Source: Liolophura sinensis
Taxonomy: Eukaryota > Mollusca > Polyplacophora > Chitonida > Chitonidae
Reading direction: 5' to 3'
Assembly: GCF_032854445.1 (NCBI RefSeq)
Contig: NC_088296.1
Coordinates: 26,221,448-26,285,447 of the forward strand
Length of the DNA: 64,000 nucleotides
Both the position numbers and the translations under genes were made by a program. Each line of letters begins with the position of its first letter. Within the stretch, counting starts at the first letter, position 1. This document shows positions 2,545 to 63,886 of the stretch, piece by piece. The notes below the pieces were generated by a model. The model made no database searches, was not told where the DNA came from, and saw nothing but the letters and a program-made list of their open reading frames with translations.

Positions 2545-2574
2545 TACACCTAGGGCGTGGACATTTGGTCACAG

Positions 2575-11728: not shown

Positions 11729-11829
11729 CCTGTACGTAAACATAAGTCGACAAGATGTCGATTTCTTGTTACTCTTTTTTATTTTGTGTCTGCTTTGAAA
11801 TTTGCGGAGTGGGCAGATTGAAGTCAAGT

Positions 11830-12181
11830 GAGTGAGTGCTTGGGGTTTAAGGTCGTATTTAACAATTTTTTAGTCATTTGACGACGAAGGAATCATTAGA
11901 GAGCATGTAATGTACCTCCTTGTTGCAGGACGGATTTCCACCGCTGTTTTATTTAGTGCTGCCTTACTGAAACGCCTTTTCGAAGGCAAGTGATCCGCCC
12001 CACCGGATCCATTATACTGATGTGGGTCAACCAGTCGTTGCAATATCCCCTTCAAGCCGAACTCCAAGCGAGAAAGTTACAACTTCCTCTTTTAAGGTCT
12101 TAGGTGTAACTCGACCCAGGATTGACCCGGAATCTATCGCTCCTGAAGCGGATGCTCTACCAACTGTCCTATCGGGGCCGG
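11830..12181 (-). mobile_element. SINE family B, near full length
   Basis: tRNA-derived SINE on the minus strand, very similar to the plus-strand copy at 63517. The tRNA-like head is at the right (A-box-like GGACAGTTGGTAGAGC, B-box-like GGGTCAATCCTGG, read on the minus strand). The body contains GCAGCACTAAATAAA, and the 3' end is a (CACT) run at 11830. A possible short duplication, GAAGTC, lies on each side. Open frames within it on both strands are spurious. Confidence 0.85.
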
Positions 12182-24800: not shown

Positions 24801-27800
24801 GTTGTGGGGAAGGCTAAACAACATAGGAAAAGGTTACCCAGGGGATTTTCTAGTGTTGTAGGGAGGCTAAACAACAGAGGGAAAGGTTACCCAGGGGATT
24901 TCTAGTGTTGTAGGAAGGCTAAACAACAGAGGGAAAGGCTACTCAGGGGATTTCTAGTGTTGTAGGGAAGGCTAAAGAACATAGGGAAAGGTTACCCAGG
25001 GAATGTCGAGTGTTGTGGGGAAGGCTAAACAACAGAGGGAAAGGTTACCCAGGGATTGTCGAGTGTTGTGGGGAAGGCTAAACAACAGAGGGGGGAAAGG
25101 TTCCTCAGGGAATATCGAGTGTTGTGGGGAAGGCTAAACAACAGAGGGAAAGGTTACTCAGGGAATGTCGAGTGTTGTAGGGAAGACTAAACAAACGAAA
25201 GGAAACGCTACACAGGGAATGTCGAGTGTTGTAGGGAAGACTAAACATACGAAGGGAAAGGCTACACAGGGAATTTCCAGTGCTGTGAAATAAACAGAGG
25301 GAATGATATTGAGAAAACCTCCAGCGTTGTAGGGATTGTTAAACACACAAAGGGAAAGGTTACTCAGGAAATGTCTAATATTGAAGGGAAGGCGAAACAA
25401 ACCGAGGGAAAGGTTACTTAGCAAATGTTCAGTGTTGGACTCAAGGCTAAACAACAGAGGGAAAGGTTACTCAGGGAATGTCGAGTGTTGTGGGGAAGGC
25501 TAAACAACAGAGGGAAAGGCTAGTCAGGGGATTTCTAGTGTTGTGGGGAAGGCTAAACAACATAGGGAAAGGTTACCCAGGGAATGTCGAATGTTGTGGG
25601 GAAGGCTAAACAACATAGGGAAAGGTTACCCAGGGGATTTCTAGTGTTGTAGGGAAGGCTAAACAACAGAGGGAAAGGTTACCCAGGGGATTTCTAGTGT
25701 TGTAGGGAAGGCTAAACAACAGAGGGATAGGTTACTCAGGGGATTTCTAGTGTTGTAGGGAAGGCTAAACAACAGAGGGAAAGGCTAGTCAGGGGATTTC
25801 TAGTGTTGTGGGGAAGGCTAAACAACATAGGAAAAGGTTACTCAGGGAATGTCGAATGTTGTGGGGAAGGCTAAACAACATAGGGATAGGTTACCCAGGG
25901 GATTTCTAGTGTTGTAGGGAAGGCTAAACAACAGAGGGAAGGGTTACCCAGGGGATTTCTAGTGTTGTAGGGAAGGCTAAACAACAGAGGGATAGGTTAC
26001 CCAGGGGATTTCTAGTGTTGTAGGGAAGGCTAAACAACAGAGGGAAAGGCTACTCAGGGGATTTCTAGTGTTGTAGGGAAGGCTAAAGAACATAGGGAAA
26101 GGTTACCCAGGGAATGTCGAGTGTTGTGGGGAAGGCTAAACAACAGAGGGAAAGGCTAGTCAGGGGATCTCTAGTTTTGTGGGGAAGGCTAAACAACATA
26201 GGGAAAGGTTACCCAGGGAATGTCGAATGTTGTGAGGAAGGCTAAACAACATAGGGAAAGGTTACCCAGGGGATTTCTAGTGTTGTAGGGAAGGCTAAAC
26301 AACAGAGGGAAAGGTTACCCAGGGGATTTCTAGTGTTGTAGGGAAGGCTAAACAACAGAGGGATAGGTTACCCAGGGGATTTCTAGTGTTGTAGGGAAGG
26401 CTAAACAACAGAGGGAAAGGCTACTCAGGGGATTTCTAGTGTTGTAGGGAAGGCTAAAGAACATAGGGAAAGGTTACCCAGGGAATGTCGAGTGTTGTGG
26501 GGAAGGCTAAACAACAGAGGGAAAGGTTACCCAGGGAATGTCGAGTGTTGTGGGGAAGGCTAAACAACAGAGGGAAAGGTTACTCAGGGAATATCGAGTG
26601 TTGTGGGGAAGGTTAAACAACAGAGGGAAAGGTTACTCAGGGAATGTCGAGTGTTGTAGGGAAGACTAAACAAACGAAGGGAAAGGTTACTCAGGGAATG
26701 TCGAGTGTTGTAGGGAAGACTAAACATACGAAGGGAAAGGCTACACAGGGAATTTCCAGTGCTGTGAAATAAACAGAGGGAATGATATTGAGAAAACCTC
26801 CAGCGTTGTAGGGATTGTTAAACACACAAAGGGAAAGGTTACTCAGGAAATGTCTAATATTGAAGGGAAGGCGAAACAAACCGAGGGAAAGGTTACTTAG
26901 CAAATGTTCAGTGTTGTAGGCAAGGCTAAACAACAGAGGGAAAGGTTACTCAGGGAATGTCGAGTGTTGTGGGGAAGGCTAAACAACAGAGGGAAAGGCT
27001 AGTCAGGGGATTTCTAGTGTTGTGGGGAAGGCTAAACAACATAGGGAAAGGTTACCCAGGGAATGTCGAATGTTGTGGGGAAGGCTAAACAACATAGGGA
27101 AAGGTTACCCAGGGGATTTCTAGTGTTGTAGGGAAGGCTAAACAACAGAGGGAAAGGTTACCCAGGGGATTTCTAGTGTTGTAGGGAAGGCTAAACAACA
27201 GAGGGATAGGTTACTCAGGGGATTTCTAGTGTTGTAGGGAAGGCTAAACAACAGAGGGAAAGGCTAGTCAGGGGATTTCTAGTGTTGTGGGGAAGGCTAA
27301 ACAACATAGGGAAAGGTTACCCAGGGAATGTCGAATGTTGTGGGGAAGGCTAAACAACATAGGGATAGGTTACCCAGGGGATTTCTAGCGTTGTAGGGAA
27401 GGCTAAACAACAGAGGGAAAGGTTACCCAGGGGATTTCTAGTGTTGTAGGGAAGGCTAAACAACAGAGGGATAGGTTACCCAGGGGATTTCTAGTGTTGT
27501 AGGGAAGGCTAAACAACAGAGGGAAAGGCTACTCAGGGGATTTCTAGTGTTGTAGGGAAGGCTAAAGAACATAGGGAAAGGTTACCCAGGGAATGTCGAG
27601 TGTTGTGGGGAAGGCTAAACAACAGAGGGAAAGGTTACCCAGGGAATGTCGAGTGTTGTGGGGAAGGCTAAACAACAGAGGGAAAGGTTACCCAGGGAAT
27701 GTCGAGTGTTGTGGGGAAGGCTAAACAACAGAGGGAAAGGCTAGTCAGGGGATTTCTAGTGTTGTGGGGAAGGCTAAACAACATAGGGAAAGGTTACCCA

Positions 27801-28385
27801 GGGAATGTCGAATGTTGTGGGGAAGGCTAAACAAACAGAGGGAAAGGTTACTCAGGGAATTTCTAGTGTGATAGGGAAGGCTAAACACACAGAGGGAAAG
27901 GTTACACAGGGAATTTCTAGTGTTGTAGGGAAGGCTAAACAAACAGAGGGAAAGGTTACTCAGGGAATTTCTAGTGTGATAGGGAAGAATAAACAAACAG
28001 AGTGAAAGGTTACCCAGGGAATTTCTAGTGTTGTAGGGAAGGCTAAACAAACAGAGGGAAAGGTTACTCAGGGAATTTCTAGTGTGATAGGGAAGGCTGC
28101 ACACAGACGGAAAAGTTACTAGTGTTATAGGGAAGGCTAAACAAACAGAGGGAAAGGTTACTCAGGGAATTTCAAGTGTTACAGGGAAGACTAAATAAAT
28201 ATAGGGAAAAGTTACTGGGGAAACTTTTAATGTTGTAAAAAGTTCTAAACAGAAGCAGGAAGGTTTTACTGGGGAAACTTCAAATGCTGTAGGGAATGCC
28301 AAACACAAAATGGGAGTGTTGTAGCGGATACTAAACAAATAGAGAGAAAAAGTTACTGATGAAACTTCCAGTGTTGTAAGGACAA
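18885..28385. repeat. 53/54-bp satellite array, about 9.5 kb, with higher-order structure
   Basis: Roughly 179 monomers sharing GTTGTAGGGAAGGCTAAACA. Most interior monomers are 53 bp (AAACAACAGAGGG). Those in a divergent cassette and at the right edge (27825-28160) are 54 bp (AAACAAACAGAGGG). The cassette, about 297 bp and marked by GAAATAAACAGAGGGAATGA, recurs seven times, starting near 19671, 20779, 21887, 22677, 24154, 25158 and 26637. Intervals of 1108, 1108, 790, about 1477, 1004 and 1479 bp differ by near multiples of 53. Interior copies are almost identical, while the 28100-28385 edge is decayed. The 98-codon minus frames in each cassette arise because its 54-bp monomers preserve frame; they are not genes. 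Confidence 0.97.
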
Positions 28386-28569: not shown

Positions 28570-28842
28570 AATCAAATCTTATTTATTTATTTAGTGGGTG
28601 TTTTACGCCGTACTCAAGAATATTTCACGTATACGACGGCGGTCAGCATTATGGTGAGAAGAAACCGGGCAGAGCCCGGGGAAACCCACGACCATCTACA
28701 GGTTGCTGGAAGACCTTCTCACGTACGGCCGGAGTGGAAGCCAGCATGAGCTGGACTTGAACTTTCATTGGTGAGAAGTTCTTGGGTCATTACGCTGCAG
28801 TAGCGCGCTAACCAACTGAGCCACGGAGGCCCCCAATCAAAT
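28570..28842 (-). mobile_element. SINE family A, full length with 8-bp target-site duplication
   Basis: Best copy in the window. Minus strand head at the right with intact A box (TGGCTCAGTTGG) at about 28815-28826; the CGCTAACCAACTGAGCCACG complement is visible on the plus strand. The B-box region GTTCAAGTCCAGC reads on the minus strand. The 3' tail of TTTA repeats is at 28580. Direct repeats AATCAAAT flank it at 28570-28577 and 28835-28842. Confidence 0.9.
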
Positions 28843-31506: not shown

Positions 31507-31624
31507 CAATGGCTTACATTACACGTACATGCACCCTAATGATTCCTTCGTCGTCATATGACTGAAAAATTGTTGAGAACGACGTTAAACCCCAAGCACT
31601 CACTCACTCACTCAATGGCTTACA
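31507..31624 (+). mobile_element. SINE family B, 5'-truncated, with 12-bp target-site duplication
   Basis: Only the last 94 bp of the SINE B body is present (31519-31612, GCACCCTAATGATTCCTTCG to the CACT tail). It is bounded by perfect direct repeats CAATGGCTTACA at 31507-31518 and 31613-31624. Loss of the head together with an intact duplication indicates truncation at insertion, as in LINE-driven retrotransposition. Confidence 0.9.
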
Positions 31625-33934: not shown

Positions 33935-34284
33935 TATATGTATGTATAAATATCCCTAGCTTTCCTTTGATGCCGACGTATGTATAAATATCCCTAGCTA
34001 ACCTTTGATGTCGATGTATGTACAAATATCCCTAGCTAACCTTTGATGTCGATGTATGTATAAATATCCCTAGCTAACCTTTGATGCCGATGTATGTATA
34101 AATATCCCTAGCTAACCTTTGATGGCGATGTATGTATAAATATCCCTAGCTAACCCTTGATGCCGATGTATGTATAAATATCCCTAGGTTTCCTTTGATG
34201 ATGATGTATGTATAAATATCCCTAGCTAACCTTTGATGCTGATGTATGTATAAATATCCCTCGCTAACCTTTGATGCCGATGTA

Positions 34285-35815
34285 TGCTATCCAAAAGAAG
34301 AAACGCATAACCCGGTTTTTTGCGGAGGTGATGCAGTCTTTTCAATTATGCATAACTAAATAAGAATTGCTATTCTGCAAATGTTTTTTTACACAGATTA
34401 AGGAAGGGTCCATATCTAGACAACAAGGCCATCAACTTGAGGTAAGACACTCACAATGAGTCTCCCACTTGAGTGGAATGTCAGTATCTCTTGTGACCAC
34501 CACGGGCACGAATAACAGTTCTGACACGCCTTGTCATGGACTGGATGAGACGCTGGATAGAGGCCTGGGGAATGTTCTGCCACTCCTCCTGCAAACATGC
34601 AACTTGCTCTTGAAGTGTTTGGGGTTGAGGTTGACGTTGGCGTAGACGTCGATCAAGTTCATCCCACAGATGCTCATTTGGGTTAAGATCCGGGGAACGG
34701 GACTGCCAGGGTAGCACATTTACATTGTTTTCGGCGAGGAAGTCCCTTGTGACACGTGCCGTGTGCGGTCTGGCGTTGTCCTGCTGGAAGAACTCCCGCT
34801 GAACGTCAATGACAGGTAAGCGGTGTGGCTGCAGGATGGTGTCTCGGTAGCGTACGGCCGTAAGATTTCCGTGAACGTGGACAAGATTTGTTCGACCAGT
34901 ATACGATATTGCTGCCCACATCATCACACTCCCTCCACCAAATCTGTCCACTTGGCGTACGCAGTTAGGGGCATAACGTTCGTGAGCACGTCTGTAAACC
35001 CGGTTTCTACCATTACGTCTCTGCAATAGGAATCTGGACTCATCACTGAAGCAAATGCGTCGCCAGTTGCGTAGATTCCATGCAGTCACGTTGTTACACC
35101 ATCGGAGGCGATTGGCGGGATGGTGAGAACGCAACACGATCCCAACATAGGGCCTCCTGGCTCTCAGTCCATGTTCCTTCAGCCTGTTCCGCACTGTCTG
35201 ACCTGATATCCTCCTCAGTCCCGGTATGCTGGCTGCTGTGCTTTCAGCTGTAGCACAACGGTCACGCAAATGGAGGACCCTTATGTAGCGATTGGGCTGC
35301 TGTAGTGACACGTGGTCGACCTGAACGCCGACGGTCATTTGTTGTCCCAGTATTGTTGTAGGGGGCAGCAAGCCGTGAAATCGTGCTCTGGCTGATGTGT
35401 AGACGCCTAGAAATGGACGATCGGGACTCTCCAGCTTGAAGTCTTCCAATGGCAATATTTCTTGTGACAGTGTCAAGAGGTGGCATGTTGAATCAGCTTG
35501 AAAACACCACTTGAAAGACGCCGATTTCCGGCCCGAAGTTGCGGGTTTATAGTCACACACTGCATGCTTTCCATGCGTAAGTTCGGCGTGTAAGACTGCA
35601 CGTGATGCAGTGTGGTGCTGTATTTCTTACTTCTTCCAAAAACGGCCTCCAAACCCAACATTTTCAACCAAGAAATGTTTTGAGGAATAAAAAGTGTGCT
35701 AACTGTGACTATTAACACTATTAAAACGCATTTTGCTCATGAAATGCAGACAAAATGTATTTATTTCATTTTAAAATAAAACAAAACACCTATGGGTTTC
35801 TGTTTTTGGATAGTA
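34285..35815 (-). mobile_element. Tc1/mariner DNA transposon, 1531 bp
   Basis: Terminal inverted repeats begin TGCTATCCAAAAGAAGAAAC at the left and TACTATCCAAAAACAGAAAC at the right (read inward). A TA dinucleotide target duplication lies on each side (34283-34284 and 35816-35817). It holds one transposase frame on the minus strand, broken by a frameshift. Both ends, the TA duplication and the enzyme type agree with the Tc1/mariner superfamily. Insertion was into an existing 38-bp minisatellite. Confidence 0.95.
34481..35486 (-). pseudogene. Tc1-type transposase with one frameshift
   Basis: From ATG at 35486 to TGA at 34481 there are 1006 nt, one more than a multiple of three, matching a protein of about 334 residues, the usual Tc1 size. 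The first frame carries the DNA-binding helix-turn-helix region (SRRLHISQSTISRL, then RRRSGRPRVTT). Near 35285-35300 homology moves to another frame, which continues RYIRVLHLRDR, the second binding domain (TVRNRLKEHGL) and the catalytic core: Asp in FSDESRF, Asp in FQQDNARPH, and Glu in DLNPNEHLWDE with 34 residues between the last two (DD34E). The catalytic triad is intact, so the frameshift appears to be the main lesion. The frame from 35560 covering the core reads through non-homologous sequence before it. Confidence 0.95.
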
Positions 35816-36329
35816 TATGTATAAATATCCCTAGCTAACCTTTGATGCCGATGTATGTATTAATATCCCTAGCTAACCTTTGATGCCGACGTATGTATAA
35901 ATATCCCTAGCTAACCTTTGATGCCGATGTATGTATAAATATCCCTAACTAACTTTTGAAGCCGATGCATGTATAAATATCCCTTGCTAACGTTTGAAGC
36001 CGATGCATGTATAAATATCCCTAGCTAACCTTTGATGCTGGTATATGTATAAATATCCCCAGGTTTCCTTTGATGCTGATGTATGTATAAATATTCCTAG
36101 CTAACCTTTTATGCCGATGCATGTATAAATATCCGTAGCTAATCTTTGATGCCGATGCATGTATAAATATCCCTAGCTAGCTATTGATGCCAATGCATGT
36201 ATAAATATCCCCAGCTAACCTTTGATGTCGATGTATGTATAAATATTCCTAGCTAACCTTTGATGCCGATGCATGTATAAATATCCCTTGCTAACGTTTG
36301 ATGTCGATGTATGTATAATGTTTTGTCAT

Positions 36330-38045: not shown

Positions 38046-38200
38046 TTATCTAAGAAGGTTAGATTGTATCTTTGTCTTGCCTTTTGTTTTCTGTCTGAAG
38101 ACATACAGACACACGATGATGAGAAACACAACCACGAGGACAGCACTGACGATGGCAGCTGTTTTTAGTGGACCTAAACCACCATCTGTCTCGCTTGGCA
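38046..38200 (-). CDS. Ig gene exon 7: membrane helix and short tail
   Basis: 155 bp, acceptor GATTTTTGCAG, stop TAA at 38046-38048. Encodes a short juxtamembrane linker, the helix TAAIVSAVLVVVFLIIVC continuing LYVF, and a 16-residue tail starting RQKTKGK. The basic residues after the helix fit type I topology. No ITAM/ITIM tyrosine motif, PDZ-binding end or kinase domain, so signalling would need partners. Confidence 0.87.
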
Positions 38201-41200
38201 CTGCAAAAATCAAATGGACAATGACAAAATGATGACGATGTTTTTGCAATGGGAACACCAATTATATGGATTTTAGTTCCGGCGTACTTTTCTACGGCTT
38301 AAGATCTATATTTTCTTTCTAAATATAGTACCTTCACACAGCGTCAGCCGTACGCTGGAAGATCCCACGCTGTTAGTTACTGTGAGGGTAAAACTGTCGG
38401 ACAGGCCATCGGGAAAATCCCACACTACAGCCTGACCCAGGATAGTGGCTTTACGGACAGTTCCACGAACAGTCATTTCTACGATGACGTTCTCCATCTC
38501 TTCAAGAGTTGTGTTAACATGAGTGGTCTCCCCTGAATCAGTCTGCCACAGTGTGTTGGTGAAGTTTGGGTAAGCGTAGAAGGGGACAGCGATACTAGTC
38601 TTGTTACTAATACATTTCCTGAAAGCACCATCACCAATAAGGGGTTTACCTATAACAAATAACAGAGTTTTTAAGGAGTCATCACAAATCCCTTGGAACC
38701 ACAAATCCGCGTCATATATGTAGCCTGTCGTGACCAATCCGTGTCATGTGTAGCCTGTCATGAGCAATCCGCTTTATATATGTAGACTTAGAGTGGCATG
38801 ACCAATCCGTGTCATATATGTAACCAGTCGTGACCAGTCCGTGACAGATATGTAACCAGTCGTGACCAATACGTATCATGTATGTGGCCATACGTTAGCA
38901 ATACGTGTCATATATGTCGCCTGACGTGACCAATAAGTGCCATATATGTAGCCTGTCCTAACCAATCCGTGTCATACCTGTAGTCTGTCATCACCAATCC
39001 GTGTCATAAATGTAGCTTGTCATCACCAATCCGTGTCATAAAGGTTGCCAGTCGTGGCGATTCCGTGTAATATATGTAGTCAGTCCTGACCAATCCGTGT
39101 CATATGTGTAGCCTGTCCTGACCAATCCGTGTCATAAAGGTTGCCAGTCGTGGCGATTCCGTGTCATATGTGTAACCTGTCGTGGCCAATCCGTGAAGGT
39201 TAACAATGGCTGGTGTGGTTGAGTACACATTTGTAGCTGCCGTTTGCACATGAATCTGGAAATGTCTCCTGATAGTATTTACACTGTTAAAAATCTTCAC
39301 AAGAAATCTAATAAAGCTCAGCATCTATACACATCAGATTACTCTGATCTTCGCTCAACATATTCATTCTCAGATGAAAATGTCCTTTTAATTTAGTTAA
39401 GATAGGCTTTCAAATTCCTTGCTTATATCCTCAACAGTTATAGGGTGTGTATCTGCAAACCACAACGCACTGGACAGAAAAATCTCCCATTGTCACTGTT
39501 TGTGAGGAACTGGTGACAGTCTAATGATAGGTGAAGAAGGGCGTTCGTTGTACTCGCTGACAGCCACTTCATAACCACCAATAATTACCTGAAAGTTTTA
39601 TGCTAAACGTGGGAAATGAAGGGGATTGCTGACTATGATCAGTACTTCCTCTTGATACTCGCCCAATGGATGTAGTTGCACCGATATCTAAATACACCAG
39701 CAGGAACAGATTCCTAATAAATGTATTAGATTAACTTACAGTTTGGTCTATGGAAGAATTCCCCTCTGGCCGTTCCGTGAGTATTTCCTACTATACAGAC
39801 GTATAATCCCATCGTGTTACAGTTCTCAGGAAGAAATAATCTATAGATATTCTCATCCTGTCTTTCCCCAGGAATCAGGCTTAGAGTTACCTCCCCTAAC
39901 CGCTGTTCCCACGGCCTAAAGTAGAATTTCCGAGGCATCCCGTCAACCGAGCATTCCAGGGCCTGAAGACCATTGTTGTAAAAAACAGAGGCGACAGGTG
40001 GATCTACAGGTGAGGCAGAAAAAAAACATGTTATGATACTCCACGTGATACAGACCCAAAGCCTAATTTCTGATAACGGCGTTTCTAATTGTGGTGGAGA
40101 TGTAGAAGATCTGTGACATAAGGAGAGTATTTAATTCATGATTTTGTGAATAAAATAGAAAAAAACTTTCTCGTTGATCAGAGCCCATCATGAATTAACG
40201 GCTTTAGAGGACAGGGTGGTGAATAATCCTCGCCATGATCTCAAAGCTTGTCCATCAACTGAGCACATGTACACATGCATCGGACCATTGGTGTACCAGT
40301 TTCCAGGACTAATTACAGCGTCACCATAACAGGAAACTGAGCGATGATCCATGGCAAGAAGCGCATGCAATCGCCAGTGCCTTTGCAAAGGTCAGTTATT
40401 TACTCTTAAAATCTGCTGCATTTAACAGAAAGTCTGTTGTATGAGTGATGCTAGAATGTGTTATGTTATTGTAGCAGATTACTCCGTTAAATATAGCACA
40501 ACTCATTCTATTAAATCAATGTAGAGGCTATATATTAGACCAACAGGAGGCTATGTCCAATAGCTTTATGTTGTTATGACCGAAGACATTCTAGTATTAC
40601 TCAGGTAACAGGTTTTGTGCTAAAATAAACTGATTATTTCTTGCGTCTTTACCGGGCATGTCGCTGTCCTTGGCCTGTAAAATCAACCAACATCGTAAAA
40701 TACCAAAAGAAGTAGGCCACAGACAGTTTGTGTTCTGGGTCAGGGCTTTCTAGTGCATCTTAATTATCATTACCACGAAAGTCAAGCATCTCAACACTGC
40801 AACATTAGCCAGATTCACAATTCTGATTGCAAAGGGACTCGTAATTCAAGCTAACCAAAATCTTGTAAAAGCCTCAACAACTTAAAGTAAAATATTTTTC
40901 ATTTACTGAGTTAGATGCTGTGAAATGTTGGAATTATAAGGTGGGCTTTATGAACCATTTTGTCAGATATGTATCGTCATATTGACCTCTCGTTAACAGA
41001 CTCACCTTACTTTATTCACAATGTTGGCATGAAGTTTATCCTTAACACGTGGGTGCAGAAATCATTTTTTTCACGTCATTGGCGATATACTTGATCAGTG
41101 GGCTAATGTCCATAACGCCCATAATATCTGAATGCATTTATTCAATGTAAAATATCTAAAATAAAATAAGGGCATTTTAAGACAAGATTTTATTTGGGCT

Positions 41201-44200
41201 CTCTACTGATTTTATGTTTCTGTTCCTTTAAGGAGAACAGATAAATTAATCAAAGTACTTGAAAATAGTCAAAATATTGAAATGTGTGTTAACCATACAC
41301 TCACATTCAACGATCATCTCCACAGATACTGTTCTGTTACCAGCATCGTTCCTGCCTCTACATTCATAAGTGCCCGCCTGTGAGCGATTTACTGACACTA
41401 CACTGTAGATGGCGCTGTTCTCAGGAAGTCGTTCTGATTGGTCGCCGTGCATTCTCCACCAGGAGAAAGATGGTGGTGGGTTTCCTGTGATGTTGCACCT
41501 CAAGTCAACACTTCGGTTTTCTGATACTGATATGGATGATTGTACTGACGGACTGATATCTGCAGGGGAAGAGACATCTGTACGGATATGAACATTTTCA
41601 AAAGAAATCCTTGTTTTGTGTGTAAAAAGGTCAAATTTTTCTATAACAATCATACAAAAAAACATACAATGTATGACCTTCTATTTCATGCCAGGTCAGT
41701 CGGCCAGTTATGCCTGCAGAAACTCCCAAATATGAAAGAGGTAATTAAGGGCTAAACCAAAGGAGAATCTTGGAAAATAAACAATGGTTAAGTGTAAATG
41801 GTAAGAATTCCAAAGAAGATCAGTTCCAACGTGGACGAAGCTGCATTTTATCGTACTAGACCAAGGTATCGATCATAAAAATTTACCTGTGTTCGCATGT
41901 TCACGAGTCTCAATATTTGGAGAGAAAGAACTCATGGCCTAAGGCAGCAAAGTGTGTCGGAGATTTAATCCGAGTTATTCATAGAAAAATATGAAATGGT
42001 TAGAATCTGTTATGTAAGACCAGTTACATAGTGGCATAGTATTATGTGTTCATTTTTGCAAAATTGTTGATAAACTTTACGACGGCAAACATGAAACTGT
42101 CATCAATTATTGATTATTTAATCAGTCCTTGCATTTTAAGCCTACTGACGATGATGAAACCTTTCACCGCATAGCCTAGCATGTCTAATGCTACCAATAT
42201 TTTTCTAAATATAATTAAAGACATGCAACACAGAGGATAACACCACAACAGCGTCGACATTGTGATAACTGGCAAACGGGCACACCTGTCCGGTGAAATG
42301 TAGCCTCTCGCCAATTTACTTCAGCGAGGCTTCATTCTAACTGTCCATGCAAGTGTCTATGTAACAAGTTGCACGCCCTTAATACCATGGCTTAAACGGT
42401 AACAAGTTGCACGCCCCTTAACACCATGATTTAAACAGTTACAAGTTATACGCCACCTAATACTATGACTTAAACAGTAACAAGTTACACGCCCCTTAAC
42501 ACCATGATTTAAACAGTAACAAGTTGCACGTCCCCTAATACCATGTCTTAAACAGTAACAAGTTGCACGTTCCCTAACAGCATGGCTAAACAGTAACAAG
42601 TTGCACGTCCCCTAATGCCATGTCTTAAACAGTAACAAGTTAAACAGTCCCCTAACACCATGGCTTAAACAGTAACAAGTAGACTTAAACAGAATTAAGT
42701 AAAAATATGCAGTGATTTTGAATGCAGTTTTTTAGGTGTACTTCACCCTTATTACTTACACAGAACGTTGAGGATGGTCTGTTCCGTCTTAGCCCCTTGT
42801 GGATACCTAACTTTACACTCCAGTATTGACCCGTTGTGATATTCCTCCACTTTCAGTGTTACAGCACTTTGTGCCCCGTGTGATCTGTTCAGCACACAGT
42901 CATTTAAAGTCCAGGTAAAGTTGAACTCCGGAAAGCTGGAGTCTGACTTACACAAGACCGGTAATGGCTTGCCCTTGGTCACGTTGAGGAAAAGGTTACC
43001 TCCCTTTGTGAAGGTGTTTGACAGTGTGAGTTTGGTTGGGCTTGGATCTGCAAGACATTTAGATCTTTGTTCAACATTTATTTTTCTTTGGGACGTAGTA
43101 TTATTTGATAATCAATGAGTTTCTTCTTTATTCACTTTAATCAATCAATCCATTTCCGTTTTAAAACATTTTTCAATCATTTTTATTTTAAAAAAATCTT
43201 AGCAGTTTAATTTTCATTTCACTTATCAGTTAACATGACCATGGTTAAGCACACTGTTTTTCGTTTATGGTGGCTGTTTAGTAAAAGTCGATGCATTTTG
43301 GTATGTATGGCAGCCAATCTCTCGCATTGTACGACTGACACTCTCTACTGATCCAGTCTGGTGTCTTTGACACGATGATATAGTGAGGAAGTATTGCTAC
43401 AATATGCATGTCTGCATTAAGGTCAGCCTTCCGCTGCGATATGATTAAAGTGATACAACATAGTTGTTAGAACAAATAAAGCACAAGGTTCGGAGACCTG
43501 GGAACAAACCAGGGTCAGAACATTAAAAATGGTACTTGTAGCTGACTCGACGTTCAGCGCTGAGAGGGCAGTACAATTATTAAGATGCACTTTTGGCTTT
43601 TCGCGGCCCAACAGACTACGTGACTCGAAAATTCTCACTACAGCAATGTTCCAATATTATAAATCTTGTGTGATAATACATGAAAAACGGATAGTGCACC
43701 TAGCTTGAAACAGGGCTGGTAGACCCACTGTCAGCAAAATATTTCTGCATAGGGTGTCATGTTAGGTGTGTAGGGCAAGGTACTCGTCCTGTCACAAGAA
43801 AGACATTGATAGGACACAGACCTCCATGACAACTTCCGTTTTGTAGTTCTATGTATTTTAGGGTGTAAAGTCTTTTCTTACTGCGAGCATGATGGAAATT
43901 GTCTAAGCGTTGGGCAGGTATGAGTTTTAATGATGAAAGTTTGAAATTCTGGGCCAGAGGACACAAGGAGACAGGTGGTGATGAGACTGCCAGTGACGTT
44001 CCCTTGGCGTTGCTAGGCACCCCTCCCAGCTGCCGGCATGGAAAGGTCCAGATTTTGACGGACAACCTATGTCAAGAATTTTATGGCTTCTTTCTCACAG
44101 GCTGGGCCAGGTATGCACCAAAGCTCACTGGCCAGAGAATGTTTGGGACTGAGCTACAGCGCTAAACGTTAACATTGTCACTTATGGAAAACTAATGGGG

Positions 44201-47200
44201 GTCTGTGGCCAGTATATGCACATACCGTAAGACTCCTCGCCGTCACAAGACTGCAAACTGTGTATGTAGTACGTAAAAAACCAAATATACATGCATACTT
44301 ACATGTACATGCAAACACACAAACCCGCACACACGCAAGCATATACATAGATATACATACCAACCAAGACTGTTCTACTAAAAAGAATACATATGTTAAC
44401 CTTACACTATTGACATCAGACTCAGACTTCGTATATTGCATGTACTGTTTTGTACTTTAAACACAGTAAACACTCACAAACTGTCAGCTCCACCTCTGTT
44501 GACAGCCCACCATTGTCACACCGAAAACTTCCATTATGCAGTTTGTAGTCCAGCCTCAATATATGCAAACTTCCGTCACCATCCATCGTGATGTTCCTGT
44601 TATACTGTGATGAATGTGCAGAATATTTAACGTCTCCATTTACCAGCATTGTGGCAATCACATTTCGTTTGAGGTGGTTTGACCAATGCCAGGTAACATC
44701 ATTGCCCGCTATACTTCCTTCGCATTTGAGAACCATGGACTCACCCTCTTTTCCGTTCATCTTTATAACACTGGCAGTCACAGGCTGCATTTCTCTGTTT
44801 TGAAACACCACTGTGTGCAATAGGACAAAAAAACCCTCATTATTAACGTGACCGATATCTATACACAGCGTAGCTGTTCGGTCTCATAACATACTCACAA
44901 GTCAAAATCATAGATGGAAAAATCGCCATTTCAGAAATAGAAGACCTCTGCCAGGAATAAAACAAACTAATCTGTGAAACACAGATACAGGACAAGAAGT
45001 ATCGACAAGTAAAGCCTTACCTTAGTAAGGAATATGAGCGACAATAACCAACCTGGGGACAAGGTATAATGCTTTTGAAACTTTACTTCCAACCTTACTG
45101 ACCTTTACTGTGATTTAAGACCGGTGTTTTTGCTTAGTTCACCAATAACAAATTCGATTGATCACCCTTGTGAAATACCGTTTTCTTGTCAAGAGAATCT
45201 GAAGTCAGGTTTTATGTAAAATTAGTAAACCTAAAACAGGCTTGTCAAATATAGTCATGATATCAACAATATAACGAAAAACTGAGAAAGTATTAAATGT
45301 TAATACATTTTACCATGTCTATTGGTGTAGTATTCATTCAACTTACACGTGACGTATTTGCTAACAAATGTATTACAACATTTATTCAGTAATGAGATAT
45401 TTATTAACCACACATTGCCGTACAACAGTCACTTCAATCAGCAATAACACAGCACCAACCAGCAGTCACACAGTGCCAATCAGCAGTCACACGGTACCAA
45501 TCAGCAGTTGTACAGTACCAATCAACAGTCACACGGTATCAATCAGCAGTCACACAGTACCTGTCAGTGTTACACACATTGGCAATCAGCAGTCACACAG
45601 TACCAATCGCCAAGCACACAGTATCAACCGGCAGTCCCACAGTACCAACCAGCAGCCACACAGTGGCAATCAGCAGTCACACAGTACATATCAGCAGTCA
45701 CACAGTACCAGTCAGCAGATATACAGTAGCAGTCACACAGTATCTATCAGAATTACACACAGTTGCAATCAGCAGTCACACAGTACCAATCAGGAGTCAC
45801 ACAGTACAAACCAACAGACACACAGTACCAATCATTAGTCACACAGTACCAATCACCAGTCACACAGTACCAATCACCAGTCACATAGTACCAACAAGAA
45901 GTCGCACAGTACCAATCAGCTGTCACACAGTATTAATCTGCAGTCACACAGTGCCAATCAGCAATCACACTGTACAAACCAGCAGAAGAAGAGTACCAAT
46001 CAGCAGTCACACAATACCAATCACCAGATACACAGTACCAATCATTAGTCACACAGTGCCAATGAGCAATCACTCACTTCCAATCAACAGTCACCCACTA
46101 CCAATCAGGAGTTGCACAGTACTAATCAGCAGATACACAGTAGCAGTCACACAGTACCTCTCAGAACTACACACAGTGGCAATCAACAGTCACACAGTAC
46201 CAATCGCCAAGCACATAGTATCAACAAGCAGTCACACAGTACCAACTAGCAGTCACACAGTACCAATCGCCAGCCACACAGTACCAATCAGCAGTCACAC
46301 AGTATGAACCAGGAGTGGCACAGTACCAATCAGCAGTCACACAGTACCAGTCAGCAGATACACAGTGGCAGTCACACAATACCTATCAGAATAACACACA
46401 GTACCAATCGGCAGTCACACAGTACCAATCGCCAGCCACACAGTTCCAATCGGCAGCCACACAGTACCAACCAGCAATTATGCAGTAGCAGTAACACGGT
46501 ACCTATCAGAATTACACACAGTGGCAATCAGCAGGAACACAGTACCAATCAGCAGTCACACAGTACCAATCAGCGGACACACATTACCAATCAACAGTCA
46601 CACAGTACCAATCAGCAATCACACAGTACCAATCAGCATTCACACAGTACCAATCAGCAGTCACACAGTATTAATCAGCAGTTACACAGTACAAACCAAC
46701 AGAAACACACAGTACCAATCAGCATTCACACAGTACTAATCGGCAGTCACGCAGTACCAATCAGCAGTCACACAGTACCAATCACCAGTCACACAGTGCC
46801 AATCAGCAGTCACACAGTACGAATCAGCTGTCACACAGTACAAATCAGCAGTCACGCAGTACCAATCAGCAGTGACACAGTACCAATCAGCAATCCCACA
46901 GTATGAATTAGCAGTCACACAGTGCCTATCAGCAGATACACAGTACCAATAAGCAGTCACACAGTGCCAATCAGCAGTCACACAGTGCCATTCAGCAATC
47001 ACGCAGAAGCAATCAGCAGTTGCACAGTGCCATTCAGCAGATACACAGTGCCAATGAGCAGTCACACAGTGCCAATGAACAATCACATATTATCAATAAA
47101 CAGTCGCACAGTACCAACCAGCAGTCACACAATACCAATCAGCAGTAACACAGTACCAATTAGGAGTCACACAGTACCAGTCAGCAGACTCACAGTACCA

Positions 47201-50200
47201 ATCAGCAATCACACAGTACAAATCAGCAGTCACACAGTATCAATCAGCAGTCAGACAGTACCAATCAGATGTCACACAGTACCAAGCAGCAATCACACAG
47301 TACTAATTGCCAGCCACACAGTACCAATCAGCAATTACACAGTACCAATCAACAGTTACACAGTATCAATCAGCAGTCACACAATACCAATCAGTTGTTG
47401 CACAGTTCCAATCAGCTGTCAAACAGTACCAATCTGCAGCCACACAGTGCCAATCAGCAGTCACACAGTACAAACCAACAGACACACAGTACCTATCACC
47501 AGTCAAACAGTGCCAATCACCAGTCACACAGTACAAATCAGCAGTCACATAGTACCAACAAGAAGTCGCACAGTACCAATCATTAGTCACACAGTACCAA
47601 TCAGCAGTCACACAGTGCCTATCAGCAGTCGCACAGTACAAACCAGCAGACGAAGAGTACCAATCAGCAGTCACACAGTACCAATCAGCAGTGACACAGT
47701 AACAATCAGCAACCCCACAGTATCAATCAGCAGTCACACAGTGCCAATCACCAGATACATAGTACTAATCATTAGTCACACAGTGCCAGTGAGCAATCAT
47801 TCACTTCCAATCAGCAGTCACCCAGTACCAATCTGTAGTTGCACAGTACTAATCAGCAGATACACAGTACCAATCACCAGTCACACAGTATTAATCAACA
47901 GTCACACAGTACAAACCAACAGACACACACAGTACCAATCAGCAGTCACACAGTATCAATCAGCAGTCACACGGTGTCAATCACCAGATACACAGTACCA
48001 ATCATTAGTCACACAGTGCCAATGAGCAATCACTCACTTCCAATCAACAGTCACCCAGTACCAATCAGTAGTTGCACAGTACTAATCAGCAGATACACAG
48101 TAGCAGTCACACAGTACCTCTCAGAACTACACACAGTGGCAATCAACAGTCACACAGTACTAATCGCCAAGCACATAGTATCAACAAGCAGTCACACAGT
48201 ACCAACTAGCAGTCACACAGTACCAATCGCCAGCCACACAGTACCAATCAGCAGTCACACAGTATGAACTAGGAGTGACACAGTACTAATCAGCAGTCAC
48301 ACAGTACCAGTCAGCAGATACACAGTGGCAGTCACACAATACCTATCAGAATAACACACAGTACCAATCGGCAGTCACACAGTACCAATCGCCAGCCACA
48401 CAGTTCCAATCGGCAGCCACACAGTACCAACCAGCAATTATGCAGTAGCAGTAACACGGTACCTATCAGAATTACATGCAGTGGCAATCAAGAGTAACAC
48501 AGTACCAATCAGCAGTCACACAGTACCAATCAGCAGTCACACAGTACTAATCAGCGGACACACAGTACCAATCAACAGTCACACAGTACCAATCAGCAAT
48601 CACACAGTACCAATCAGCAGTCACACAGTACCAACCTGCAGTCACACAGTACCAATTAGCAGTCACACAGTACAAACCAACAGACACACACAGTACCAAT
48701 CAGCATTCACACAGTACCAATCACCAGTCACGCAGTACCAATCAGCAGTGACACAGTACCAATCAGCAGTCACACAGTACCAATCAGCGGACACACAGTA
48801 CCAATCAACAATTACACAGTACCAAACATCAATCACACAGTACCAATCAACAGTCACACAGTACCAATCAGCAGTCACACAGTACCAATCAGCAGTCACA
48901 CAGTGCAAACTAACAGACACACACAGTACAAATTAGCATGCACACAGTACAAAGTAGCAGTCACACAGTATCAATCAGCAGTCAAACAGTACCAATTAGA
49001 TGTCACACAGTACCAATCAGCAATCACACAGTACTAATTGCCGGCCACACAGTACCAATCAGCAATTACACAGTACCAATCAACAGTCACACAGTACCAA
49101 TCGGCAGTCACACAGTACCAATCAGCAGTCACACAGTGCAAACTAACAGACACACACACTGTCAGTACAAATTAGCATGCACACAGTACAAAGTAGCAGT
49201 CACACAGTATCAATCAGCAGTCAAACAGTACCAATCAGATGTCACACAGTACCAATCAGCAATCACACAGTACTAATTGCCGGCCATACAGTACCAATCA
49301 GCAATTACACAGTACCAATCAACAGTTACACAGTATCAATCAGCAGTCACACAGTACCAATCAGTTGTTGCACAGTTCCAATCAGCTGTCACACAGTACC
49401 AATGACCAATCACACCGTATCAATGAACAGTCGCACAGTACTAATCAACAGTCACACAATACCAATCAGCAGTCACACGGTACCAAGCAGCAATCACACT
49501 GTACCAATTAGCAGTGACACAGTACCAATCAGGAGTCACACAGTACAAATCAGCAGTCACACAGTACCAATGAGCAGTCACACAGTGCGAATCAGCAGTC
49601 ACGCAGTACCAATCAGCAGTGACACAGTACCAATCAGCAATCTTACAGTATGAATTAGCAGTCACACAGTGCCAATCAGCAGATACACAGTACCAATGAG
49701 CAGTCACACAGTGCCAATCAGCAGTCACACAGTACCAATCAGCAATTCCACAGTATGAATTAGCAGTCACACAGTGCCAATCAGCAGATATACAGTAAGA
49801 AAAAGCAGTCACGCAGTACCATTCAGCAGTGACACAGTACCAATCAGCAATCCCACAGTATGAATTAGCAGTCAAACAGTGCCAATCAGCAGATACACAG
49901 TACCAATAAGCAGTCACACGGTACCAATCAGCAGTCGCACAGTACCAATCATTAGTCACACGGTACCAATCAGCAGTCACACAGTACCGATCAGCAGTCA
50001 CACAGTACTAATCAGTAGACACACAGTACCAATCAGCAATCACATAGAACCAATTACAGTCACACAGTATCAATCAGCAGTCAAACTGTACCAATCTGCA
50101 GTCGCACAGTACCAAAAAGCAACCACACAGTACCAATCAGCAACCACACCGTACGAATTAGCAGTCACACAGTACCAATCAGCAGTCGCACAGTACCAGT

Positions 50201-50631
50201 AAGCAGCCACACAGTATCAACCAGCAGTCGCACAGTATCAATCAGGAGTCACACAGTACCAATCAGGAGTCACACAGTACCAATCAGCAGACACACAGTA
50301 CCACTCAGCAGTCGCACATTACCACTCAGCAGACACACTTTATCGGACAATCCTCTTTCGTCCAGCATCGCCTAACACATGCATACGTGACAAATTTGTT
50401 TAATACGACTAAGCACGAGTGAAATGAACCAAGTCACCTCATAGATGCCCTCTGTACATGTGGATAGAGGTGTATTGCCCATCTTGTATAACCCTAACAG
50501 GCGAACTCACAACCACTACTAACAATGAAATACATATGTATAAGTAATCCATATTAGTATTTATAGACATTCCAAGGCCAAAGTTGTCTATACTTACGCC
50601 AAAGTAACACCGTCCATAGGAAAACGTCCAT
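38046..50631 (-). CDS. type I membrane protein with five Ig-like domains (seven exons, complete)
   Basis: Predicted cell-surface recognition or adhesion protein. Coding exons on the minus strand: 50631-50598, 44810-44478, 43047-42760, 41577-41305, 40003-39740, 38649-38332, 38200-38046. Every intron is GT-AG and phase 1, and the exons sum to 1665 nt = 554 residues plus stop, strong internal support for the model. Residues 1 to about 18 form a signal peptide; Ig-like domains lie at about 22-122, 124-218, 220-309, 311-397 and 399-503; a membrane helix is at 517-538, followed by a 16-residue basic tail without obvious signalling motifs. Many N-x-S/T sites suggest glycosylation. One domain per phase-1 exon is the classic Ig-superfamily layout and allows exon shuffling. 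The specific family is not recognised. Intron 1 (about 5.8 kb) contains the 21-bp minisatellite array. Confidence 0.85.
38332..38649 (-). CDS. Ig gene exon 6: fifth, atypical Ig-like domain
   Basis: 318 bp, acceptor TTTGTTATAG, donor GTACTA (weak after position 4). The end reads SFTLTVTNSVGSSSVRLTL, a beta-sandwich F-G hairpin, but the usual F-strand Cys is replaced by Val, so the canonical disulfide is missing. Cys410 and Cys502 may pair instead. It could also be read as a fibronectin-III-like or degenerate Ig fold. Confidence 0.82.
38700..39190. repeat. 32-bp minisatellite in an intron of the Ig gene
   Basis: About 15 degenerate copies of a unit containing ACCAATCCGTGTCATATATG and GTAGCCTGTCGTG, lying in the intron between exons 5 and 6. 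Some adjacent pairs are nearly identical, suggesting ongoing local duplication. Confidence 0.9.
39740..40003 (-). CDS. Ig gene exon 5: fourth Ig-like domain
   Basis: 264 bp, acceptor CTCACCTGTAG, donor GTAAGT. Cys327 (QALECSVDG) and Cys379 (LYVCIVGN) form the expected pair, with Trp341 further along than usual. An extra Cys371 lies in the E-F loop. The start of this domain resembles the decayed exon near 40.2-40.3 kb. Confidence 0.82.
40188..40345 (-). pseudogene. decayed Ig-domain exon in the Ig gene
   Basis: A minus-strand frame reads WYTNGPMHVYMCSVDGQALR, resembling the start of exon 5 (FYNNGLQALECSVDG). It lacks the second half of the domain, runs to a stop (LSSKAVNS), has no donor, and its nearest acceptor is in the wrong phase. 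It looks like a tandem duplicate of exon 5 that lost function. Confidence 0.55.
41305..41577 (-). CDS. Ig gene exon 4: third Ig domain (I-set-like)
   Basis: 273 bp, acceptor TCCGTACAG, donor GTGAGT. The clearest Ig domain: Cys246 (VDLRCNITGNPPPSFSWW, Trp258), then SQAGTYECRGRNDAG with Cys291. The D-strand to F-strand pattern is typical of I-set domains in hemicentin- or titin-like and cell-adhesion proteins. Confidence 0.92.
42357..42685. repeat. 38/39-bp minisatellite in an intron of the Ig gene
   Basis: About eight copies of a unit containing AAACAGTAACAAGTTGCACG and CCCTAATACCATG, between exons 3 and 4. Confidence 0.92.
42760..43047 (-). CDS. Ig gene exon 3: second Ig domain
   Basis: 288 bp, acceptor ATGTCTTGCAG, donor GTAAGT. 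Cys155 (PVLCKSD), Trp168 (FNFTWTL) and Cys200 (SILECKV) form the Ig core; an extra Cys173 lies just after the C strand. It resembles C2-type domains. Several N-x-S/T sites are present. Confidence 0.87.
43795..44208. repeat. interspersed repeat, copy 2
   Basis: The counterpart of 2575-3012, same orientation, lying in the intron between exons 2 and 3 of the Ig gene. It shares GACACAAGGAGACAGGTGGT, GCTGCCGGCATGGAAAGGTC and the CTTATGGAAAACTAATGGG end. Differences are spread along its length, so the copies are not recent. Open frames here are not genes. Confidence 0.75.
44478..44810 (-). CDS. Ig gene exon 2: first Ig domain (V-like)
   Basis: 333 bp, acceptor TTGCACACAG, donor GTGAGT. Ig landmarks: Cys41 (MVLKC), Trp52 (VTWHW), a long middle section, then LHILRLDY and Cys109 (GSFRC). 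The spacing of about 68 residues between the cysteines fits a V-type domain. The F strand has Phe in place of the usual Tyr before the second Cys. Confidence 0.85.
45430..50340. repeat. 21-bp minisatellite array, about 4.9 kb, in intron 1 of the Ig gene
   Basis: About 230 copies of a 21-bp unit with core CACACAGTACCAATCAG. Many variants (AACCAGCAG, AGATACACAG, CAATTAGC) recur in the same order in distant segments; for example 46064-46520 and 48030-48490 match closely, indicating block duplications of hundreds of bases. The 7-codon period keeps several frames open on both strands (up to 367 codons of SHTVPIS-like repeats); none is a gene. The array lies entirely between exon 1 and exon 2. Confidence 0.97.
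50598..50631 (-). CDS. Ig gene exon 1: start codon and signal peptide
   Basis: ATG at 50631, 11 codons (MDVFLWTVLLW) and one base, then a perfect donor GTAAGTAT. Joined to exon 2 it gives MDVFLWTVLLWLVFQN, a convincing hydrophobic signal peptide. This exon is far too short to be found by ORF length; it was placed by donor, phase and hydrophobicity. Upstream untranslated sequence is not delimited. Confidence 0.8.
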
Positions 50632-52068: not shown

Positions 52069-52299
52069 GGAGGCTCCGTGGCTCAGTTGGTTAGCGCGTT
52101 AAACGCCTCTCACCAATTCAGTCTCTTATGCTGACTTCCTCTCAGATCGTACATGGATAGATCTGTCAGCAGTTTGCGGATGGTCGTGGGTTTGCCTTGG
52201 GGATATCCCGGTTTCCTCCAACCATAACGCTGACCGCCGTTGTACAAGTGAAATATTCTTCATTACGGCATAAAACACCAATGAAATAAATAAATAAAT
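52069..52299 (+). mobile_element. SINE family A, plus orientation, internally deleted head
   Basis: Begins GGAGGCTCCGTGGCTCAGTT with an intact A box, and ends CGGCATAAAACACCAATGAA and an (AAAT) tail. About 25-30 bp including the B box are missing between GCGCGTTAAACGCC and TCTCACC. The MITE-like element begins directly after its tail. Confidence 0.85.
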
Positions 52300-57989: not shown

Positions 57990-60900
57990 TAACACAATCT
58001 GATAACACAATGATAACAAAGTGAAAGCGATACACCTTGATAACGCAGTAAAAATTATACATCATGATAACACAGTGAAGGCAATACATCCAGAAAACCC
58101 AATGGAGACGTACACCCTGAAAACACAGTGAAGACTAATGACAGTGAGCACTATAAACCCTGATAATACGGTAAAGGTGATACACCCTGATAACACAGTA
58201 AAGACGACACACCCTGACAACACAGTAAAGATAAACGCCCTGATAACACTGTGGAGACGACAAACCCTGATAACACAGTGGAGGTGACACACCCCGATAA
58301 CACAGTAGAGATGATGCACCCTGAAAATACAGAAAAGACGACCCGCCCCAATAACATTTAAAGGCGGTACACCCGGATAACATAGTAAAGTGATACACGC
58401 CGATAAAAGAGTAAAGACGACACACCGTAATAACACAGTAAAAGCAATACACTCTAACAACACTGTAAAGACGAAACACCCACATAGAACATAAAGGCGA
58501 TGCACCCTGATAACACAATAAAGGTAATGCACCGTGATAAGACATACAAAGCGATACACCCGAATAATGCAGTAAAGGCCACACACCCTAATGACACAAT
58601 AAAGACGACACACCCTGATAAGACATACAAAGCGATACACCCGGATAATACAGTAAAGGCCACACACCCTAATGACACAGTAAAACGACACACCCTGATA
58701 AGACATACAAAGCGATACACCTGGATAATACAGTAAAGGCCACACAGCCTAATGACACAGTAAAACGACACATCCTGATAAGACATACAAAGCGATACAC
58801 CTGGATACTACAGTAAAAGTCACACACCCTATCGACACAGTAAGACGACACATCCTGATAAGACATACAAAGCGATACACCCAGATAATACAGTAAAGGC
58901 CACACACCCTAATGACACAGTAAGACGACACATCCTGATAAGACATACAAAACGATACACCCGGATAATACAGTAAAGGCCACACACCCTAATGACACAG
59001 TAAAGACGACACATCCTGATAAGACATACAAAGCGATACACCTGGATAATACAGAAAAGGTCACACACCCTAATGACACAGTAAAGACGACACACCCTGA
59101 TAAGACATACAAAGCGATACACCTGGATAATACAGTAAAGGTCACACACCCTAATGACACAGTAAAGACGACACACCCTGATAAGACATACAAAACGATA
59201 CACCCGGATAATACAGTAAAGGCCACACACCCTAATGACACAGTAAAGACGACACACCCTGATAAAACATACAAAGCGATACACCTGGATAATACAGTAA
59301 AGGTCACACACCCTAATGACACAGTAAAGACGATACATCCTGATAAGACATACAAAAAGATACACCTGGATAATACAGTAAAGGCCACACACTCTAATGA
59401 CACAGTAAAGACGATACACTCTAATAAGACATACAAAACGATACACCCGGATAATACAGTAAAGGCCACACAACCTAATGACACAGTAAAGACGACACAC
59501 CTTGATAAGACATACAAAGCGATACACCTGGATAATACAGTAAAGGCCACACACCCTAATGACACAGTAAAGACGATACACCCTGATAAGACATACAAAA
59601 AGATACACCTGGATAACACAGTAAAGGCCACACACCCTAATGACACAGTAAGACGACACATCCTGATAAGACATACAAAACGATACACCCGGATAATACA
59701 GTAAAGGCCACACAACCTAATGACACAGTAAAGACGACACACCCTGATAAGACATACAAAGCGATACACCTGGATAATACAGTAAAGGCCACACACCCTA
59801 ATAACACAGTAAAGACGACACATCCTGATAAGACATACAAAACGATACATCCGGTAATACAGTAAAGGCCACACAACCTAATGACACAGTAAAGACGACA
59901 CACCCTGATAAGACATACAAAGCGATACACCCGGATAATACAGTAAAGGCTACACACCCTAATGACACAGTAAAGACGATACACCCTGATAAGACATACA
60001 AAGCGATACACCTGGATAATACAGTAAAGGTCACAAACCCTAATGACACAGTAAAGACGACACACCCTGATAAGACATACAAAACGATACACCCGGATAA
60101 TACAGTAAAGGCCACACACCCTAATGACACAGTAAAGACGACACATCCTAATAAGACATACAAAGCGATACACCTGGATAATACAGTAAAGGTCACACAT
60201 CCTAATGACACAGTAAAGACGATACACCCTGATAAGACATACAAAAAGATACACCTGGATAATACAGTAAAGGCCACACACCCTAATGACACAGTAAGAC
60301 GACACATCCTGATAAGACATACAAAACGATACACCCGGATAATACAGTAAAGGCCACACAACCTAATGACACAGTAAAGACGACACACCCTGATAAGACA
60401 TACAAAGCGATACACCTGGATAATACAGTAAAGGCCACACAACCTAATGACACAGTAAAGACGACACATCCTGATAAGACATACAAAACGATACTCCCCG
60501 GTAATACAGTAAAGGCCACACACCCTAATGACACAGTAAAGACGACACACCCTGATAAGACATACAAAGCGATACACCCGGATAATACAGTAAAGGCCAC
60601 ACACCCTAATGACACAGTAAAGACGACACACCCTGATAAGACATACAAAGCGATACACCTGGATAATACAGTAAAGGTCACACACCCTAATGACACAGTA
60701 AAGACGACACACCCTGATAAGACATACAAAACGATACACCCGGATAATACAGTAAAGGCCACACACCCTAATGACACAGTAAAGACGACACACCCTGATA
60801 AAACATACAAAGCGATACACCTGGATAATACAGTAAAGGTCACACACCCTAATGACACAGTAAAGACGATACACCCTGATAAGACATACAAAAAGATACA

Positions 60901-63160: not shown

Positions 63161-63502
63161 GATACACAAAGCAGGGTCAAAAAGCACCAAACCCACGACA
63201 CTCTTGACGACGCCTGCTGTCTTAATACATTCTGATAATAGTAGTGAAGTGCAGAGGCGTTATGGATGTGTCACTTTACAGGGCGGACATATTGGCCAAA
63301 AAATGGCTACCTTATTAATACAGACAGGAAATTTTGGAAAAAAGCCGTTTGGAAGGTAACAAAGCTTCTTTCTGCGTGAGCCTGTTGTCTGCCTTGGGTG
63401 AGAACTATGCATGTGGGTCTACACATACAGGCAGGAACGAGCCAAGTGGTCACGCTAAATAGTACCAAGCTTACTCAATCAGGTATGCACAATCAGGAGG
63501 CT
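63161..63502. other. unique spacer with one weak start-exon signal
   Basis: ATGGCTACC at about 63303, with favourable AAAAAATGG context, opens 17 codons (MATLLIQTGNFGKKPFG) and meets a donor-like AAGGTAACA. It could be a first exon of a gene running beyond the window, but there is no second line of evidence. Confidence 0.2.
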
Positions 63503-63886
63503 TCAAAGAGTGGTGACCGGCCCGGATAGCACAGTTGGTAGAGCGTCCGCTTCGGGACCGGTAGATCCAGGATCAATCCTTTGTCGAGTCACACCTAAGA
63601 CTTTAAAAGAGGAAGTTGTAACTTCCTCGCTTGGCGTCCAGCATGAAGGGGATGGCGCAACGACTGGTTGACCCGTATCAGTATAATGGCTCGGGCGGGG
63701 CGGCTTACTTGCCTTCGGTAAGTAGTCTCAGTGATGCAGCACTAAATAAAAGAGCGGTGGAAATCCGTCCTGCAACAAGGAGGCACATTACACGTGCATG
63801 CACCCTAATGATTCCTTCGTCGTCATATGACTGAAAAATTGTTGAGTACGACGTTAAACCCCAAGCACTCACTCAAAGAGTGGTGA
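63503..63886 (+). mobile_element. SINE family B, full length, 14-bp target-site duplication
   Basis: Element at 63517-63872, flanked by perfect direct repeats TCAAAGAGTGGTGA at 63503-63516 and 63873-63886. The tRNA-like head has an A box AGCACAGTTGGTAGAGCG and a B-box-like GGATCAATCC. The body contains GAGGAAGTTGTAACTTCCTC (a short inverted repeat) and GCAGCACTAAATAAA. The tail is CACTCACT. The long, perfect duplication suggests a recent insertion. Confidence 0.93.

Follow-up and report, generated by a model that had tools for sequence, protein, structure and literature searches.

The 64,000-nucleotide window of Liolophura sinensis analysed here (contig NC_088296.1, positions 26,221,448 to 26,285,447) contains a seven-exon gene on its minus strand, rebuilt from splice sites and running from 50631 to 38046. 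The gene is real, and the best explanation of it as a whole (probability about 0.82) is that its product is a type I membrane glycoprotein belonging to the immunoglobulin superfamily (IgSF). The layout of the product, with a signal peptide, five immunoglobulin (Ig) domains, one membrane helix and a basic tail of 16 residues, is very likely to be right; of the five domains the first is V-like, the next two have clear profiles, the fourth is divergent, and the fifth, next to the membrane, lacks the usual cysteine pair. A reading of the DNA made earlier, from sequence only, had called it an Ig-superfamily receptor, and the exon chain, Ig domains and single helix bear this out. The points that count for the explanation are the exon chain and its phases, the specificity of phase 1-1 exons for this locus, Pfam matches in domains 2 and 3, matches in the PDB, the exons of relatives elsewhere in the genome, 13 N-glycosylation sequons, and the helix.

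Exon chain and gene ends

The exons and one competing first exon are as follows, in window coordinates, with the domains numbered D1 to D5.

50631-50598, minus: exon 1, 34 nt, with the start codon and the core of the signal peptide, MDVFLWTVLLWL; probable but unproven
44810-44478, minus: exon 2, 333 nt, Ig domain 1 (D1), weakly V-set-like
43047-42760, minus: exon 3, 288 nt, Ig domain 2 (D2), Pfam Ig_2
41559-41305, minus: exon 4, 255 nt, Ig domain 3 (D3), I-set; 6 residues longer with the alternative acceptor at 41577, which is also in frame
40003-39740, minus: exon 5, 264 nt, Ig domain 4 (D4), carrying an FxxWExR stretch common to three relatives
38649-38332, minus: exon 6, 318 nt, Ig domain 5 (D5), without the usual B-F cysteine pair
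38200-38046, minus: exon 7, 155 nt, stalk, membrane helix, 16-residue basic tail, TAA
44929-44899, minus: rival first exon, 31 nt, MAIFPSMILT; donor 6.7 bits; would leave an intron 1 of 88 bp

All six introns are GT-AG, the chain is free of internal stops, and cumulative exon length modulo 3 is 1 at each of the six junctions; the claim that every intron is in phase 1 holds, and the TAA at 38046 is recovered as the end of the open chain. Length is a different matter: 1665 nt and 554 residues had been given, and these come out only if exon 4 begins at 41577. Under our splice scoring (a generic weight matrix) the acceptor at 41559 reaches 10.0 bits and ranks among the best 0.23% of the window's AGs, and 41577, at 5.8 bits, is in the top 14.28%; because it outscores its neighbor, the model with 41559, of 1647 nt and 548 residues, is the likelier. 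Both acceptors may be in use, as frame and phase are preserved by each. Taken singly, the splice sites range from unremarkable to weak; the acceptor of exon 2, for instance, is no better than the top 24%, and the donor of exon 6 than the top 11%.

The chain is specific to its place. A scan of the window outside its repeats, on both strands, for phase 1-1 open exons 240-345 nt long that have an acceptor and a donor gives none on the plus strand and ten on the minus strand, every one of them at one of the five Ig exon loci. Since its thresholds sit just under this gene's weakest sites, the scan is a specificity check, not a blind test. For all five domains, domain borders are exon borders and the flanking introns are in phase 1 (the class 1-1 shuffled modules of Patthy). 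Introns all in phase 1 are to be expected, since shuffled extracellular modules as a rule occupy one exon each and are flanked by phase 1 introns; phase 1 introns are also in excess near signal-peptide cleavage sites (PMC8001218).

The 5' end of the model is less certain. Exon 1 at 50631-50598 (start context TTAAACATGG; donor GTAAGT, 5.3 bits) is probable, its signal peptide being judged by hydrophobicity alone. A scan for first exons with a donor cut of at least 6 bits gave six candidates and excluded this one, its donor being under the cut; a second scan, with the cut lowered to 4.5 bits and the hydrophobicity scale changed, gave six candidates upstream of exon 2, among which it ranks first and is the most hydrophobic. 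Over the whole window (non-repeat DNA, both strands) the second scan yields eight candidates, so that about one chance match is expected in the 6.7 kb of non-repeat DNA upstream. One might then suppose that translation starts elsewhere, in the exon at 44929-44899 or in a more distant one, with the remaining model unchanged. The former has the stronger donor (6.7 versus 5.3 bits), an 88-bp intron, and a place in both scans where exon 1 has a place in one; it is also less hydrophobic, with a proline in the core, and the start at 50631 outranks it in the second scan. We consider a different start unlikely.

At the 3' end, exon 7 is probably terminal, because its best internal GT (38182; 3.9 bits, with the exon 6 donor at 3.8) precedes the helix and its other GTs score 2.4 bits or less. 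AATAAA was not found within 2.28 kb 3' of the stop; AGTAAA occurs 549 nt downstream of it.

Ig domains and relatives in the genome

One domain recognized as Ig is enough for membership of the IgSF, and the profile search finds two: D3 (Ig_3, E = 1.6e-12; I-set, 1.1e-11) and D2 (Ig_2, 8.4e-8) are over the Pfam cut-off, with D1 under it (V-set, E = 0.036). Cysteines 155/200 with Trp 168 in D2, and 240/285 with Trp 252/253 in D3, form the expected arrangement (pairing inferred); a cysteine pair is also present in D1 (41/109) and D4 (321/373), not in D5. A sequence search of the PDB returns 188 matches; to judge by their names, the 60 listed are Ig-domain proteins without exception, most of them aligning at D3, and titin, MDGA1, contactins, DCC, Robo and nectins are among them. 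In single-domain searches of the PDB, D1 and D4 give only matches with E > 0.5, and D5 gives no match; single-domain structure models of D4 and D5 are too poor to use, and no family is prominent in their structure matches. A count of F-strand motifs, 3 found against 0.0034 expected per shuffle, carries little weight, the motif having been written post hoc. The best E in a BLAST comparison among the five domains is 0.40, so there has been no recent internal duplication. Further Ig exons did not appear in a three-frame Pfam scan of the minus strand (38.0-45.4 and 50.3-52.0 kb, the intron 1 minisatellite at 45.4-50.3 kb being left out): the only Ig matches are in the frame of the known exons, the best at D3. 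Beyond the domains lies one strong membrane helix (residues ~511-532, hydropathy peak 3.27) without a charged residue; the tail, RQKTKGKTKIQSNLLR, is basic and has no tyrosine. The single helix and very short tail described earlier are thereby confirmed.

D4 and D5 are recognized through relatives, so that of the five Ig-like domains proposed D2 and D3 stand by Pfam, D4 and D5 by comparison, and D1 with weak support. The genome searched comprises 609 Mb in 632 contigs (C1, C2 and so on here; the window is C2:26221448-26285447). The spliced protein gave 96 candidates, of which 79 were scored, so that counts are lower bounds: at least 78 matches, six of them the gene itself. Relatives at C1:92.49, C1:88.03, C2:24.13, C2:23.23 and C3:2.47 Mb, partly read, resemble the window gene: each exon has a single Ig domain, the exons that were scanned are phase 1-1, and the domain order is the same where at least two domains were read; they differ in being only 25-37% identical to it, and each is known from partial stretches. 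At C1:92.49 Mb a D3-like exon (36%) is followed by a D4-like one (31%), phase 1-1 and in window-gene order, the latter matching Ig_3 at 1.2e-5, under the curated cut-off (26.2 vs 30 bits). The pair at C3:2.47 Mb (D3-like 36%, D4-like 25%) has its D4-like exon over the I-set cut-off (24.6 vs 23.7 bits); a D4-like stretch at C1:88.03 Mb, 28% identical and with 27.7 bits short of the Ig_3 cut-off, precedes a D5-like phase 1-1 exon. Aligned, the D4 copies have F-x-x-W-E-x-R in common. Upstream of the two exons at C1:92.49 Mb, an Ig-like open stretch (C1:92494612-92494394, minus; PYASYSWMVDNG...), spotted by eye, is perhaps a D2.

D5 matches C1:88034118-88034486 with 28.6% identity over 91 residues (E = 3.3e-6 in a 1.2-kb search), and that exon is over the I-set cut-off (29.8 vs 23.7 bits), its best stretch being the profile's second half. 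In the alignment, the usual cysteine-pair positions are occupied by other residues in both D5 sequences. Because the relative's exon passes I-set and the pair positions hold other residues, D5 is most likely an Ig domain that lacks the pair. Against this, a genome-wide search with D5 alone gives the match at C1:88.03 Mb an E of only 0.38, with three others at 0.157-0.967, so that the evidence for D5 rests on a site beside a D4-like stretch. Unusual Ig domains occur in Hydractinia histocompatibility genes.

D1 points toward the window's own contig. Nine genome matches fall in the D1 range, each weak (E 0.1 to 6.3), and all nine are on C2, a contig that holds less than 5% of the genome. Three Ig exons of phase 1-1 stand at C2:24.13 Mb in window-gene order: D1-like (27%), a second, and D3-like (29%). 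The first aligns with D1 at 27% over 90 residues (E = 4.9e-7 in an 8-kb search) and is, like D1, under the Pfam cut-offs; the second is D2-like by place and by Ig profile (C2-set_2, 1.6e-11), its sequence likeness being slight. The second and third exons at C2:23.23 Mb are near-identical to these (a count by eye gives 3 differences in 91 residues and 5 in 88), and a D1-range match lies just outside the stretch read there; a full D4-like or D5-like exon was not seen in the stretches read of either copy. The two loci (C2:24131200-24139200 and C2:23222500-23232499), 0.9 Mb apart, also have in common a low-complexity stretch between Ig exons, and are probably a recent duplication. Left out as exon candidates were low-complexity RREFPDSLALIVTIS... 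in both copies, taken as minisatellite translations, one C2:23.23 Mb candidate at 23225137-23224883, and overlapping candidates that differ only in the borders of one exon.

On C3, 16 matches (E 2.7e-8 to 0.32; D3- or D4-like) merge to 14 places between 2.22 and 2.55 Mb, mostly 7-17 kb apart with one 183-kb gap; the merge does not include one further match, on the minus strand (E 0.03). Around the window gene itself, within 120 kb either side (304 kb in total), only the gene matches better than E 0.2, and the nearest D1-range match is at C2:26426211 (E 0.87), ~141 kb outside the window. At C4:19.00-19.36 Mb and C13:17.51-17.57 Mb, I-set matches lie in dense runs that are perhaps giant titin-like genes or clusters.

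Repeats and other content of the window

Tandem-repeat DNA makes up ~54% of the window (34,851 of 64,000 bases; a hand-made list of 21 merged stretches). The repeats named below include those in the introns, for which the minisatellites were located with Tandem Repeats Finder.

45435-50338: 21-bp minisatellite, ~236 copies, most of intron 1
42361-42680: 39-bp minisatellite, intron 3
38704-39195: 32-bp minisatellite, intron 5
43812-44211: interspersed repeat copy, intron 2; 43889-44211 is 90% identical to 2697-3026
18889-28237: 53-bp tandem repeat, 177 copies
58153-63167: 81-bp tandem repeat, 62 copies

Three interspersed families are present: the one with a copy in intron 2 (also at 2567-3026), a second at 6961-7227, 28579-28834 and 52074-52298, and a third at 11827-12181, 31516-31608 and 63517-63875. 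A Tc1-like transposase open frame (34484-35626, minus; DDE_3 and HTH_Tnp_Tc3_2 over cut-off) is bracketed by short inverted repeats at 34287-34309 and 35791-35813 (23 bp, 87%, E 0.55) and sits inside a 38-bp minisatellite, whose unit is found on both flanks (33938-34286 and 35816-36318). Other genes were sought by a six-frame Pfam scan of 1-3.4, 4.3-9.7 and 51.5-55.2 kb, whose five matches (E 0.023-0.23) are all below cut-off; a search against viral contigs and the Rfam and tRNA scans gave no match.

Likely role and competing explanations

One way to understand such a protein is as a surface molecule that works by its outer part, which would bind either a ligand or a similar molecule carried by another cell, in adhesion or recognition. 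This reading, of adhesion or recognition without signalling of its own, is an even call. Any signal would have to be passed on by a partner, since the tail is without tyrosine and the helix without a charged residue: the tail is too short for known tyrosine-motif signalling, and the helix offers no charge to dock a signalling partner, so another partner would be needed. The immune or recognition role suggested by the sequence-only reading may apply.

Among the literature seen, the nearest layout described is that of CgIgIT2 of the Pacific oyster, likened by layout alone: five extracellular Ig domains and one membrane helix in each, with an immunoreceptor tyrosine-based activation motif (ITAM) in the oyster protein where the chiton tail has no tyrosine (PMC11999971). 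That review assigns the ITAM, whereas a title it cites speaks of an inhibitory receptor. IgSF proteins with solved structures (contactins, MDGA1, IgLONs, nectins) likewise have consecutive Ig domains and give significant matches, mostly at D3, but D1, D4 and D5 alone have none. The domain number and membrane anchor of these proteins differ from those of the window protein. Molluscan FREP was considered and rejected: it requires a C-terminal fibrinogen domain, and the spliced protein has no fibrinogen match, nor have the three minus-strand frames of 38.0-45.4 and 50.3-52.0 kb.

A second perspective supposes that the gene is a signalling immune receptor of the CgIgIT2 kind, made through an alternative, longer 3' exon. 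The outer layout is indeed that of CgIgIT2 (PMC11999971), but the tail has none of the tyrosine motifs, ITAM or its inhibitory counterpart ITIM, that mark such receptors, and the only exon 7 GT at the level of the exon 6 donor, at 38182, would on use remove the helix, not lengthen the tail; we regard this as very improbable. Slightly less so, and still improbable, is that the gene is a member of a receptor family that has decayed or is not expressed. Its introns carry large minisatellites and a repeat, Pfam has no match for the window protein's own D4 and D5, and a few matches among its relatives contain stops; the relatives may not all be functional genes. Against decay, all exons are open, the phases agree over six junctions, and D4 and D5 retain Ig-type residues.

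Such a gene adds one protein to a very common kind, built in the textbook way, and as a single gene its interest is mainly the correct annotation of a split gene with large intronic minisatellites. The diverged relatives in its own genome would fit a duplicating receptor family. We go further only with hesitation: the nine D1-range matches confined to C2, the two near-identical copies there, and the 14 places on C3 could mean that the gene belongs to a lineage-restricted system of many IgSF receptor genes in which the V-like D1 evolves fast, a doubtful proposal. The relatives provide an entry point, making an expanded Ig receptor family with changing D1 testable, and likewise a D5 without the usual cysteine pair as a shared mark of the family. 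If the proposal were true, such a set, with its membrane-proximal Ig domain lacking that pair, could serve immune or self-recognition.

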